Below, in pieces: positions 8,358 through 13,976 of a stretch of DNA of 64,000 nt. This DNA is from a virus: IMG/VR virus record IMGVR_UViG_3300036884_000495, positions 1 to 64,000 of that record; one strand, 5' to 3'. Both the position numbers and the translations under genes were made by a program. The first letter of the stretch is position 1; the number at the start of each line of letters is the position of its first letter. The notes beneath the pieces were generated by a model. The model did not search any database. It worked only from the letters and a program-made list of their open reading frames with translations, and had not been told where the DNA came from.

Positions 8358-8909
8358 CTAGTAGTCGTCTGGCGTGTTGAGCATCATCTCGATGCGCTTC
8401 GCGCGAAACAGTCGGTGTCTGGACTCATTGAAGCCCCAATCACAGCGCCCCGATGCGTACAGGTTTAGTAGGGCGTACTCGTTGGTTGTGGCGCATGCAA
8501 AGCTCATACGAACAATGGCGAGTTCTGTGCGGATGCATTTCTTGCGATCGGACGTGAGGTCCTTACCGGTCCATCCATCAGGGGCACCGTATGTGACGGT
8601 CCCGTCCTCGTTGATCCGGATGCGTCCCTTCCCGATGTTGATTTGTGCGAGGCACCACGACGAGCCCCCATCTCCTTTGCGTGAGCCTTCATCGACATCG
8701 CGGCGAAAGCCGCTTTCAAAGGACATGATGGAGAGCAGCACGGCATCCGTTTTGATGCGCGAGTCATCGTCGTCATACAGCGGCTTTTCCGAAGACGTGA
8801 CGTCATAGATATCTTGCGCAATGGACTCGTGGCGAGCAGCTTCCTGGACGCTCGTAGTCGGCGCATAGGTTTCGATGACGGCAACGATGATGGGAATAAG
8901 TGCGTTCAT
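8358..8909 (-). CDS. Lytic transglycosylase-like (SLT fold) enzyme
   Basis: 183 aa. The start at 8909 is chosen because GGAGG lies 8 nt upstream; it gives a hydrophobic N-terminus (NALIPIIVAVI) that may act as a signal or anchor. Residues about 57-93 match the lysozyme-like core of soluble lytic transglycosylases: the catalytic Glu65 in SIMSFESGF, and WCLAQINIG in place of the usual SxGLMQI strand. Such enzymes cleave the MurNAc-GlcNAc bond of peptidoglycan. Since it lies among small accessory genes it could act in lysis or wall entry. Confidence 0.7.
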   Translation of the reverse strand: MNALIPIIVAVIETYAPTTSVQEAARHESIAQDIYDVTSSEKPLYDDDDSRIKTDAVLLSIMSFESGFRRDVDEGSRKGDGGSSWCLAQINIGKGRIRINEDGTVTYGAPDGWTGKDLTSDRKKCIRTELAIVRMSFACATTNEYALLNLYASGRCDWGFNESRHRLFRAKRIEMMLNTPDDY

Positions 8910-8978: not shown

Positions 8979-9293
8979 CTACGTAGTAGGGGGCTGCCTT
9001 CCTTGTACGAAGAAGCCAGCGTGTTCTGGCTCCGTAATCTGGTAGTTCTTTCCGTCGTGTGAGAGGAGGGCGTTTACGGCGCCTGCGCGAACGCAGACAC
9101 TACGAGCACCCGACCAAACCCACAACACGTCACCGTCACGCCACTCAATACGCGTGTCGGGGGCAGCCAGGCGTATGCCCGCGAAGTACGCCGTCGCCAT
9201 CAGCATTGTGGTGGATGCGTACCCTAGCTTGTCGACGTATCGGTTGTAGAAGGCGGCGCGGCTTCTTCGCTCGCAGGTGTGACAGGTAGACAT
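8979..9293 (-). CDS. Small protein with N-terminal CxxC
   Basis: 104 aa, ATG start at 9293. Begins MSTCHTCERRSRA, a short zinc-knuckle-like motif, followed by a helix and a beta-rich part (IEWRDGDVLWVWSGARSVCV). No clear Shine-Dalgarno is seen. Family unknown. Confidence 0.6.
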   Translation of the reverse strand: MSTCHTCERRSRAAFYNRYVDKLGYASTTMLMATAYFAGIRLAAPDTRIEWRDGDVLWVWSGARSVCVRAGAVNALLSHDGKNYQITEPEHAGFFVQGRQPPTT

Positions 9294-10212: not shown

Positions 10213-10455
10213 GTGGAGTGCGCAGTGCTGTGGCTAATGCGTGTAAAGCGCCACGGCGTAGACGCCGCCGGCTACTCGCGCGATCTTGTACGCTACTGGG
10301 GCGATTCGAACTTGCGTGCGGCGCTACTCACGCAGTACCTTGTGGCAGGGTATATTCGCGAGCAGGTTGCACAAAAACAGATGCGCACTGCGATCGACAG
10401 CGCCCTGAACCTACTCAATCTGAAAATTAGCCTGACATTGAAGGTGGAACCATGA
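10213..10455 (+). CDS. Hypothetical helical protein (start uncertain)
   Basis: 80 aa from GTG at 10213, 12 nt after AAGGAG. The same frame is open back to ATG 9976 without a ribosome site. The protein is helical (ECAVLWLMRVKRHG, DLVRYWGDSNLRAALLTQYL, AIDSALNLLNLKISL) with no recognised domain. Its stop overlaps the next start (ATGA), which supports the downstream part as coding. Confidence 0.55.
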   Translation: MECAVLWLMRVKRHGVDAAGYSRDLVRYWGDSNLRAALLTQYLVAGYIREQVAQKQMRTAIDSALNLLNLKISLTLKVEP

Positions 10456-10967
10456 GCGAGCTACTTGATTCTCTATCTGCAGAACGCATATTCAGCCTGT
10501 TCATCATCGACCTTGAACAGGTGAAGGAACACGGCGACAGCCCCTACTTGCTGAAGATCGTGTTGCCTCGATACGCCAAGTTTCTAGGCATCTTGAATAT
10601 CCCCTCGCCCCTCGCGGGCTTGGGCCTGCCCGTAGGTGGTGGGCGTGATGCTTACGCGTTTCTTTGTGACCCGAATGAAGTAGAAACGAGCAACTTCTAC
10701 GTCACGCCTTTGAAGCACGACATGGCTTTCCCGTGGGAGCGCCCCGGCGACCTCCTCAAATCCATGCTGGTGCGCTGCACGGCGCTCGCTATGACAGCAC
10801 CAGGGGGCGTTCCAGTCCTGCACGTGCAAACGTCGGTCAACAGAGACAAGTACGAGCAGTTCGAACAAGAAGTGCGCGATGCTGGCTACCTGCTTCTGAA
10901 CGGCATTCCGTACACACAGGCCCAAAGTTTCATGGCATCCATGTTCGCTCCGCCCCTAAAAGCGTAA
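10452..10967 (+). CDS. Hypothetical protein
   Basis: 171 aa starting at an ATGA overlap. Mixed alpha/beta: a helical N-terminus (LDSLSAERIFSLFIIDLEQV), a Gly-rich loop (AGLGLPVGGGRD), then regular strands and helices (MTAPGGVPVLHVQTSVNRD). No known motif. It forms a two-gene unit with the preceding gene and is followed by a sigma70-like promoter. Confidence 0.65.
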   Translation: MSELLDSLSAERIFSLFIIDLEQVKEHGDSPYLLKIVLPRYAKFLGILNIPSPLAGLGLPVGGGRDAYAFLCDPNEVETSNFYVTPLKHDMAFPWERPGDLLKSMLVRCTALAMTAPGGVPVLHVQTSVNRDKYEQFEQEVRDAGYLLLNGIPYTQAQSFMASMFAPPLKA

Positions 10968-11044: not shown

Positions 11045-11314
11045 ATGCATGTAGTCAAGCCGGTGGCTTGGTCTCAGACCAAGCCGCAGATGGGTACGTT
11101 TGCGTTTTCGTCGGCGAATGCGAGTAACCACCGCCTTCTGCGTATGACGGGAACGTTCCCCGCGGTGTACGGCGTAGTCACATACGTCGACCCCTACTTA
11201 GACTTTGTTTCGGTCGATGTTCTAGCATCCGACGGTACCCAGTCGTCTTGGGCGGGAACGCACCAACAATGTGACGACACGTGGGAACCCTTTCTGATAC
11301 AAGGAGCTACGTGA
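11045..11314 (+). CDS. Hypothetical small beta-rich protein
   Basis: 89 aa with CAGGAGCACAC before the ATG. Beta-rich (FPAVYGVVTYVDPYLDFVSVDVLASDG), with no membrane segment. The downstream gene starts one nucleotide past its stop. Function unknown; possibly a small virion or DNA-contact protein given the position before structural genes. Confidence 0.65.
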   Translation: MHVVKPVAWSQTKPQMGTFAFSSANASNHRLLRMTGTFPAVYGVVTYVDPYLDFVSVDVLASDGTQSSWAGTHQQCDDTWEPFLIQGAT

Positions 11315-11315
11315 C

Positions 11316-11519
11316 ATGCCCAAACCAAAGACGCGCGCTACAAGCATCGACTTCGAAGACCTCGATCCAGACCTGCAAGAGATTGCAGCGCAATTACGAG
11401 CGTCGCTAGTAGAAGAAATCGACGACGCCACAAAGAATCCGCAGGAGCGAATCGCCATGTTGCGCGATATTATGGAGCGACTCGAAGAACGTATTGAAGA
11501 ATACGAAGACATCGGGTAG
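11316..11519 (+). CDS. Small acidic helical protein
   Basis: 67 aa with AAGGAG upstream. Almost wholly one or two acidic amphipathic helices (DPDLQEIAAQLRASLVEEID, MERLEERIEEYED). Likely a coiled-coil or scaffold-type partner; no family is assigned. The transcript continues into the structured RNA at 11525. Confidence 0.65.
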   Translation: MPKPKTRATSIDFEDLDPDLQEIAAQLRASLVEEIDDATKNPQERIAMLRDIMERLEERIEEYEDIG

Positions 11520-11524
11520 CTTTC

Positions 11525-11741
11525 TCTGTGCCGGTGGCCTTCGGCCTCAAACGAGCAGTTTGCTCAGACCGGCAATTACTTGATGTTCTCAATGAGGTGT
11601 TGGATATGCCGAACTTATGCACTTGTGCATCTCGGCGAGCATCCCCTAGTACAGAAGGAACGACGTCCAACGACCTCTGTACGCGCGCCCTGAGTAGGGG
11701 GAGAACGTCGGGGAGAAGGCAGGGTTACACCTGCCTTTTCT
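11525..11741 (+). ncRNA. Structured RNA candidate, about 215 nt
   Basis: Five folded elements follow each other. (1) A three-way junction: TGCCGGT 11529-11535 pairs with ACCGGCA 11568-11574 and encloses two perfect hairpins, GGCC/GGCC (11536-11546) and GAGCA/TGCTC (11553-11565). (2) GCCGA/TCGGC (11608-11612, 11632-11636) with an inner ATGCA/TGCAT hairpin. (3) GTACAGA(A)GG with CCTCTGTAC (11649-11658, 11674-11682), itself enclosed by CCCCTA/TAGGGG (11643-11648, 11695-11700). (4) Loop bases CGACGT 11661-11666 can pair with ACGTCG 11705-11710 as a pseudoknot. (5) A terminator. An open frame at 11528 lacks a ribosome site and runs into the terminator, so it is not taken as coding. It may be a free small RNA or a 3' UTR; its role is unknown. 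Confidence 0.6.
11716..11741 (+). terminator. Intrinsic terminator
   Basis: AAGGCAGG pairs with CCTGCCTT (8 bp, 6-nt loop), followed by TTTCTTTT. It ends the 11045-11741 transcript. Confidence 0.9.
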
Positions 11742-11792
11742 TTTAGCCCACGATATCGTTGTACACTCATGCAATAGACGTAGGAGGTTTTC

Positions 11793-12866
11793 ATGTCCGA
11801 AGGTTCAGGTCTCTTTACGAATGCGCGTCCGATGAATGCCAACTTGGTGAAGCCCGGGCAGGGCGGCATCGGCGGCGAAGTGGGCGATCTTCGCCAAGAC
11901 GTCGCCAAGACGTTGGCGCCGATGGCTGCCATTTGCATCGCGGAGTACATCAACCCGCTTGCTGCCGCCGCGAACAACGTGATGGCTGCTTCTGTCACTC
12001 CCGCTGCGGGCGTTGTGGCCACGCTGTTGCCTGTGGCGGGCGGCGGTACCAATAAGCTCACGAAGGCAACGACGGACAACCTCAAGATTGCATCGCGACA
12101 ACTAACGTTCACAACGGCGGGCAGTACAGCGGCGAATGCGCCTGCGACGGCGTCGGTGCTGGGCAAGGACGAACATGGCCTTCAGTTCACGGAAGTCGTA
12201 GCCCTCCAGCAGGTTGCAGGGGTGGTCACCACGTCCAACTTCTTCGCCGAGGTGGACAAGATTACGTACTCCGTTGGCAAAGGCGCGGGCGCAACGATTG
12301 CTATCGGGTTGGGGGCAACTTTGGGGCTGACCCGCACGCTTGTCAAACGCGCAGGACGTTACGCCATTCTTCAAGAATCGGCGGCGGGCTCTGTGGTGAC
12401 CACTGGCACCTTCAAGCTCGCAAGCGAGGGTACCGTGGCCACCGCACTGGGCACCGTGGACCTTGTGACGGCAGTGCCCGTTATGCCGACCACGCAAGTG
12501 ATCACCTTTCTTATCGAAGGCGTGACCAAGGCTGTGACCTTCTCAAGCCCCGCGGATCTCGCGGGCATTGTTTCGCAAGTCAACGCCGTCTGTGGCGCCG
12601 GCTTTGCGGCCGCCGGGGGCGTGGCTAGTAAGTTCTTGGCGCTCTCCGACAACGTCGTGGGCGCTGCGGGCAACAGCAGCACAATCGTGGTGGTGTCCGG
12701 CACAGGAACGGGCGGCTCGAACATCCTCACGGTTCTCGGGCTCACAGCAGGTGTCGTGCACTACGGCGCCAGCCAGGGTAAGCGCGGTTCGTACGCGCCG
12801 TCCAGCGCACCCAACGGTGCAACAAGCTACGCCGTGTACTACGAGTACAACGGCGCCGAGCTCTGA
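11793..12866 (+). CDS. Abundant-type virion protein, paralogue 1
   Basis: 357 aa, ATG with AGGAGG upstream. It is collinear, without gaps, with the next gene, roughly half or more of residues identical by eye; the shared core includes VMAASVTPAAG, LLPVAGGGTN, TTSNFF and DLVTAVPVMPTTQ. Residues about 230-330 resemble a beta module often found in phage tail proteins (FLIEGVTKAVTFSSPADLAG then IN-rich and LGL at the end). Strong ribosome site, low charge and tandem duplication fit a major virion component such as a tail tube, cement or fibre protein, but which one is unknown. Confidence 0.8.
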   Translation: MSEGSGLFTNARPMNANLVKPGQGGIGGEVGDLRQDVAKTLAPMAAICIAEYINPLAAAANNVMAASVTPAAGVVATLLPVAGGGTNKLTKATTDNLKIASRQLTFTTAGSTAANAPATASVLGKDEHGLQFTEVVALQQVAGVVTTSNFFAEVDKITYSVGKGAGATIAIGLGATLGLTRTLVKRAGRYAILQESAAGSVVTTGTFKLASEGTVATALGTVDLVTAVPVMPTTQVITFLIEGVTKAVTFSSPADLAGIVSQVNAVCGAGFAAAGGVASKFLALSDNVVGAAGNSSTIVVVSGTGTGGSNILTVLGLTAGVVHYGASQGKRGSYAPSSAPNGATSYAVYYEYNGAEL

Positions 12867-12902
12867 TAGCGGGTACTCGGAAGCTAACTGCAGGAGGTTG
12901 TC

Positions 12903-13976
12903 ATGTCTGAGGGTTCAGGTCTCTTTACAAAAGTGCGCCCGGTGGATGCCTATTCGGTGAAGCCTAGGCTGGGTGGTATCAGTGGCGAAACGAAGGACCT
13001 ACGCAAAGACGTGACGAATGCGTTTGCGCCGATGTCGGCGCTGTGTGTGGAAGAGTATGTCAACCCACTTGCTCCTGCAGTTGGCAACCTGATGGCGGCG
13101 TCTGTCACGCCCGCTGCAGACGTAACGCTCACGCTCCTACCTGTGGCGGGCGGGGGCACCAACGCGTTGACGCTCGTTACAGTCCAAAACCTTACCCAAG
13201 CCCCGCGGCAACTTGTGTTCACTACAGGTGGCGCCACAGAAACGGATGCACCAGCGTCAGCCACGGTCTACGGCCTCGATGAGCGTGGAGTTCAGTTCAC
13301 GGAAGTTGTACCGTTGCAGCAGGTGGCCGCCGCAGCGACTACGTCCAACTTCTTCTCGTCCATTACCAAGATTGTCTACGCCGTCGGCGAGGGTGCAAAC
13401 GCAACGATTGCCATCGGGCTCGGAAGCATCATCGGTATCTCTCGCTCACTCATTATGCGCGCGGGGCGCTACGCCATCATTCAAGAGGTGGCGGCGGGTG
13501 TAGCCGTGACCAATGGTGTGTTCAAACTTGCCAGCGAGTCTTTGCCGGCTACTGTGCTAGGTACTGTGGATCTTGTAACAGCGGTGCCTGTTATGCCGAC
13601 GACGCAGTCCATTACGTTTGAGGTTGGTGGAAGGCAGCGGACTATCACCTTCCACAATCCCGCGGATCTGGCGGCAATCTGCTCGACGATCAGCCACCTT
13701 ATTGGACCCGGCTTTGCTACAGCAGGCGGCACGGACAATAAGTACCTCAAACTCACAGACGATACGCTAGACTGGTCCGGCACGCAAAGTACGCTCCGCG
13801 TAGTATCCGGTACCGGTGTTGGTGCGGATAACATCCTCAACGTTCTTGGCCTTCTTCCCAATGTATTGTACCGAGGGGTCAGCCAGGGTAAGTTCGGCTC
13901 TTATACGCCCAACCACACACCGGATGGCTCGACCAGCTATGCCGTCTACTACGAGTACGATGGCGCTGCGCCCTGA
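12903..13976 (+). CDS. Abundant-type virion protein, paralogue 2
   Basis: 357 aa, same length and domain order as 11793-12866. Its leader (AGGAGGTTGTCATG) and first codons are nearly the same as those of the first copy, marking a tandem gene duplication. Differences are concentrated in surface-type positions in the middle (for example residues 240-310), while N- and C-terminal motifs (MSEGSGLFT; SYAVYYEY) are kept. The two may assemble together or provide alternative subunits. A terminator follows. Confidence 0.8.
   Translation: MSEGSGLFTKVRPVDAYSVKPRLGGISGETKDLRKDVTNAFAPMSALCVEEYVNPLAPAVGNLMAASVTPAADVTLTLLPVAGGGTNALTLVTVQNLTQAPRQLVFTTGGATETDAPASATVYGLDERGVQFTEVVPLQQVAAAATTSNFFSSITKIVYAVGEGANATIAIGLGSIIGISRSLIMRAGRYAIIQEVAAGVAVTNGVFKLASESLPATVLGTVDLVTAVPVMPTTQSITFEVGGRQRTITFHNPADLAAICSTISHLIGPGFATAGGTDNKYLKLTDDTLDWSGTQSTLRVVSGTGVGADNILNVLGLLPNVLYRGVSQGKFGSYTPNHTPDGSTSYAVYYEYDGAAP

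Follow-up and report, generated by a model that had tools for sequence, protein, structure and literature searches.

A probable two-module noncoding RNA in the tmRNA slot of a phage genome

Introduction

Phage-encoded tmRNA is already known, for example from mycobacteriophage Bxz1 and Bacillus phage G (PMC4131195). In mycobacteriophage DS6A, the tmRNA is reduced to its tRNA-like domain, and inhibition of tmRNA, perhaps through titration of SmpB, has been reported for this type of reduced molecule (PMC4131195).

Here we describe a folded RNA that lies where a related phage carries its tmRNA gene. The DNA analyzed (hereafter the window) is the initial 64 kb of a virus record that is 117,624 bases long. 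A preliminary description made from the sequence of the window had pointed to a structured RNA of about 215 nt upstream of duplicated virion genes. Our analysis makes it very probable that the region 11529-11741, on the plus strand, is a genuine RNA gene of the phage. We consider it fairly likely that this gene encodes an independently terminated phage noncoding RNA of ~215 nt that occupies a tmRNA slot and is built from two modules.

Materials and Methods

Relatives of this phage were found by aligning the beta' part of its fused RNA polymerase with distant homologues. The polymerase is encoded outside the window by a single open frame (73854-82487 of the record; L005:1854-10487) of 2,877 aa with beta and beta' domains. 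A LAGLIDADG-type domain, perhaps an intein or an insertion, was observed between the two (residues 1409-1471). The beta' alignment led to 80 viral loci, the nearest being G001 (61%) and G032 (55%). Direct queries of viral contigs with the virion protein P0001, the alignment of its paralogues, the DNA polymerase and the protein encoded from 10452 returned no relatives, and neither did searches of public phages with the neighboring virion genes. With an alignment of the 10452 family, the only matches were G001 and the G032 group. A 1370-aa virion-type protein had no kin in genome contigs. Comparison of the RNA itself by blastn with phages, plasmids and 32 related records gave nothing beyond chance.

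Fold stability was compared with dinucleotide shuffles, and the record was scanned in 217-nt windows at 200-nt steps on both strands of its 117.6 kb. The covariance model (CM) used to search the related records was built from this phage's RNA alone. Automatic alignments misplaced one arm of the G032 junction or an entire sequence, so the three distinct junction sequences were aligned by hand according to their structure before base pairs were counted. A descriptor of the junction that used structure only was too weak on its own, with 0.3-1.4% of random 68-nt windows scoring comparably.

Results

Every helix named in the preliminary description is present within 11529-11741, where the sequence and its predicted fold place the three-way junction, the nested hairpin, the enclosed bulged stem and the terminator as it had described them. 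The 5' module (11529-11574) is the three-way junction, closed by P1 (11529-11535/11568-11574) and bearing the arms P1a (11536-11539/11543-11546) and P1b (11553-11557/11561-11565). Its fold, CM matches and two-sided pair changes mark it as a leader common to the tmRNA genes of relatives. A linker follows (11575-11582), the 3' half of which here belongs to P2. The 3' module (11579-11712), defined by its fold and by segment shuffles, supplies the 134 nt behind the leader that we call the cargo. It consists of the closing stem P2 (11579-11590/11701-11712), the stem S1 with one bulged G (11594-11604/11666-11677), the nested hairpin P3 (11608-11612/11632-11636, with an inner helix at 11617-11621/11626-11630), and either a possible pseudoknot, S2 (11643-11653 with 11678-11682 and 11695-11700), or the alternative P4, a local 4-bp hairpin (11688-11699). 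The last element is a hairpin resembling an intrinsic terminator (stem 11713-11723/11730-11740), with a U-rich tail that runs to 11746.

The whole RNA folded to a minimum free energy of -91.8 kcal/mol, compared with -71.1 +/- 4.6 for the shuffles (z -4.45), and none of 200 shuffled sequences equaled it; the opposite strand of the region folded more weakly. In the record-wide scan, the region ranked 10th of 1,171 windows after refinement (z -4.5). Much of this unusual stability is supplied by the terminator hairpin, which alone reached z -5.6 and whose stem had a pair probability near 1 in the ensemble, as compared to -2.8 for the three-way junction and -2.5 for the P2-S1-P3 domain. The preliminary argument that so many perfect helices exceed chance is accordingly sound for the whole RNA and less so for its middle domain. 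A consensus terminator scanner did not list the hairpin at 11713-11740, probably as a result of some of the T run being included in the 11-bp stem. Elsewhere in the record, outside the window, the strongest fold of all was an imperfect palindrome of ~270 nt between genes (115170-115439; L004:15170-15439), with z of about -12 on one strand and -11 on the other.

Individual helices were also compared with shuffled segments. No shuffle among 5000 matched P2, and the corresponding probabilities were p 0.0024 for P1 and p 0.0004 for S1. For S2, values of p 0.009-0.020 were obtained in one shuffle test and 0.074 in another, so that the pseudoknot is only weakly supported against shuffled segments. 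S1 and S2 compete in nested folding (S1 pairs mostly ~0.6, S2 0.12-0.25), and S2 also competes with P4. The pairing suggested in the preliminary description is present in the sequence, and as S1 and S2 share just one base, the two might form jointly as a pseudoknot.

The CM recovered the junction ahead of the tmRNA genes of three relatives, G001, G032 and G035. In G001, the match (8469-8513) ends 8 nt before the tmRNA, with an E-value of 0.032 in 253 kb and 1.3e-4 in 1 kb. The G032 junction, likewise 8 nt before the tmRNA, was matched at E 1.1e-4 in 0.7 kb, and that of G035, at the same spacing, at E 0.013 in 67 kb unfiltered, where the next match stood at 0.56. The tmRNA gene of G001 (8522-8890, tag ANDNANQAAA) lies at the place of this phage's RNA: homologues of 10452-10967 and 11045-11314 occur there in the same order, followed by the junction and the tmRNA. 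The tag of the G032 tmRNA is ANDNYLADVA.

Across the three distinct junction sequences, standard pairs fill 47 of 51 cells, and 7 of the 17 pairs show two-sided changes. G-U pairs occur among the variants. The compensatory changes that the preliminary description had proposed to look for are found, in the 5' junction of two related groups. The segment between the junction arms reads UCAAAC here, UUAAUG in G001 and UCAAUG in G032. The 5' module of this phage has the conserved arms, the UYAAWS linker segment and the position 8 nt before the next RNA that characterize the leader. An alternative fold of equal energy competes with the arms in the G001 junction, where their probability is ~0.2; P1 is certain. 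Judging by these sequences, the junction appears to be a leader carried before tmRNA by two related groups, namely G001 and G032 with its kin.

Among 36 related records with this polymerase, ten contained a tmRNA over the Rfam cut-off (G001, G011, G016, G025, G027, G028 and G032-G035). The junction was not found before other phage tmRNAs; of 27 phage stretches matched by a tmRNA-subtype pattern, only those of G001 and the G032 group had it. When viral contigs were searched with an IUPAC pattern of the junction, the single true site was that of G001, and eight other sites were chance matches. Across 84,980 genomes of bacteria and archaea the pattern occurred seven times, never close to a tmRNA. 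In the part of the literature covered, we did not come across any account of phage tmRNAs preceded by a conserved three-way-junction leader, nor of any other RNA behind such a leader. SmpB was not recognizable in the eight phages of the group that were searched, and the phage tmRNAs of this group would therefore use the SmpB of the host. Other RNA genes were seen in passing: the related phage contig G007 carries thirty tRNA genes in ~4 kb (L176:4400-8540), and ARAGORN reported permuted tmRNA genes (tmRNA*) in the viral contigs L221, L227, L232, L235 and L239.

An open frame of 72 codons spans the RNA region on the plus strand, from GTG at 11528 to TAG at 11744. It matches no Pfam family at cut-off, and the junction varies in length by 1-2 nt among relatives; together these lend no support to a conserved protein frame, the observation that the preliminary description had named as counting against an RNA. 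Upstream, a 67-aa acidic protein (11316-11519, plus strand) ends 9 nt before the RNA. Its C-terminal half is charged and probably helical. The protein could be placed in no PHROG or Pfam family, and the four relatives compared have no homologue of it.

Downstream lie two tandem paralogous genes that are not part of the RNA (11793-12866 and 12903-13976, plus strand, 62% identical), which we regard as virion genes since their counterparts in relatives sit next to the capsid gene. Homologues of the tandem gene occur in eight of the related records found by RNA polymerase. In G004, G008 and G029, the homologue directly follows a 374-aa gene, which in G004 is the major capsid gene and 75% identical to that of this phage.

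This arrangement raises the possibility that the RNA is a cis-acting leader (a riboswitch or attenuator) of the virion genes at 11793-13976, its fold deciding whether transcription terminates before them. The RNA is on the same strand, lies 50 nt upstream of the first of these genes, ends in a terminator and contains several competing pairings, a layout that would suit such a leader. We nevertheless hold this to be unlikely. No comparable RNA was found upstream of the virion-gene homologues in the eight related records, the conserved half of the RNA precedes tmRNA in relatives instead, and on unsystematic inspection no segment stood out as a clear anti-terminator partner of the terminator arms. 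The preliminary description had allowed for a regulatory element; the same comparison gives no support to control of the virion gene pair. A packaging element, also considered there, likewise finds no support: Rfam gave no match, phi29 pRNA included, and the conserved neighbor in relatives is a tmRNA rather than a terminase or capsid gene.

Known RNA classes gave no account of the region. The tmRNA model RF00023 had no match in the window, in a local scan at E<=1 or in the whole 117,624-base record, and ARAGORN, permuted forms included, reported no tmRNA or tRNA in the record. The record may fall short of the full genome, in which case the phage might carry a tmRNA elsewhere. The preliminary judgement that tRNA and hammerhead do not fit agrees with our searches, as ARAGORN found no tRNA cloverleaf with an anticodon and Rfam no hammerhead ribozyme. 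Neither phi29 pRNA (RF00044) nor any other Rfam family reached its gathering threshold; two weak matches at E near 1 were far below their cut-offs. We saw no T-loop, acceptor-stem tRNA-like domain or tag frame in the cargo. Within the related records, no homologue of the cargo was found by CM or blast, and its alignment with the tmRNAs of relatives was no better than shuffled (p 0.47-0.89).

How such a cargo might have come to stand behind a shared leader is suggested by G032 and G035 (L194 and L191). These two are identical in the upstream region, in the 60 nt containing junction and linker, and in the opening two dozen bases of the tmRNA, after which the rest diverges abruptly (~65-75% where alignable, with many gaps and different tags). 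At the sequence level, this looks like an RNA exchanged behind a fixed front end by recombination inside the tmRNA gene. In the phage studied here the exchange would have gone further, as the RNA behind the junction is unlike the tmRNAs of relatives. Separately, a second folded region was observed behind the G001 tmRNA (L126:8930-9285); its 3' part (~9120-9235) is tRNA-like, and it includes a hairpin of terminator type. It was recognized by neither ARAGORN nor Rfam, and as a candidate homologue of the cargo it was rejected, aligning only marginally (p 0.07).

The cargo might alternatively be the remnant of an ancestral tmRNA that has decayed or been strongly rebuilt. The syntenic slot and the leader held in common with the G001 tmRNA are what this would predict, and tmRNA bodies change fast in the group. 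Set against this, the missing Rfam and ARAGORN signals, the lack of a visible T-loop or tag frame and the shuffled-like alignment to relatives' tmRNAs speak against a remnant, and the helices show stability and no sign of decay. Such an origin strikes us as quite improbable.

There is only a slim chance, in our view, that the junction acts as a DNA element (a promoter, say, or a site recognized by the phage RNA polymerase), with the rest serving as spacer and terminator. The junction does sit at the expected start of the transcript, a beta-beta' RNA polymerase is encoded by the phage itself, and a TTGACA-like hexamer lies upstream in G032. Against a DNA element, the CM detected the junction only once in this record, whereas a polymerase would need several sites; the G-U pairs among variants favor pairing as RNA; and P2 and S1 exceed chance. 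Lastly, that an intergenic region rich in G+C and bearing a strong terminator folds well by accident is very improbable for the RNA as a whole, even with the terminator giving much of the z-score and nine other windows of the record ranking higher, given independent CM matches at a fixed distance before tmRNA in two groups, with compensatory changes, one of them at the syntenic place in G001; leader homology makes chance unlikely, and for the cargo alone it is possible.

Discussion

Of the functions entertained in the preliminary description, a phage small RNA fits best, and we favor a noncoding RNA of two modules in the tmRNA slot. This reading draws on the position and fold of the region, the homology of its leader with the compensatory changes, synteny with G001, the lack of tmRNA hallmarks and the terminator sequence. 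The points against it are that only three distinct junction sequences are available and were aligned by hand, that the G001 junction has an alternative fold, that searches gave neither a promoter of known type nor a promoter motif common to the record, and that no homologue, and with it no covariation, was found for the cargo.

The RNA would be transcribed on the plus strand as a discrete unit and ended by its own intrinsic terminator. The transcript most likely begins with the junction leader, which may protect the RNA or present it for 5' processing. The cargo of P2, S1 and P3 would then be a different stable RNA occupying the tmRNA slot, probably acting in trans. Its most plausible target is the host translation or ribosome-rescue machinery, which the tmRNA of relatives addresses; the shared slot and the DS6A precedent are what suggest this target, and we offer it tentatively.

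A wider proposal would be that, in phages that have their own fused RNA polymerase, a constant junction front end serves exchangeable stable RNAs, usually tmRNA, and that the cargo here, a folded and possibly pseudoknotted RNA of a new class, takes over from tmRNA the management of stalled host ribosomes. We regard this as speculative and rather doubtful.

To our knowledge, what phage tmRNAs do for the phage is an open question. A phage that keeps the leader and has another folded RNA in the slot is a natural comparison for studying that role. Viral contigs could also be screened with the conserved leader for more RNAs that have escaped annotation. Should the cargo act on ribosome rescue, it would be a novel means by which a phage controls translation in its host.

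Among known systems, riboswitch and attenuator leaders resemble this RNA in combining alternative pairings with a terminator ahead of a gene; they differ in that this RNA is not linked to the downstream gene in relatives and has no evident anti-terminator. We take phi29 pRNA (RF00044) to be similar as a phage RNA of similar length with junctions, whereas the RNA described here has no Rfam match, lies in a tmRNA-like slot and is not tied to packaging genes. The reduced tmRNA of DS6A is likewise a phage RNA that replaces a full tmRNA, but it keeps the tRNA-like domain that this RNA lacks. A further likeness is to the phage tmRNAs (ssrA; RF00023) of G001 and G032, stable noncoding RNAs of tailed phages that stand behind the same three-way-junction leader at the same 8-nt spacing, that of G001 in the same genomic slot. 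From these, the present RNA is set apart by its want of a tRNA-like domain, tag frame and Rfam or ARAGORN match, by a cargo without sequence similarity to theirs, and by its own terminator, which follows directly after the cargo.
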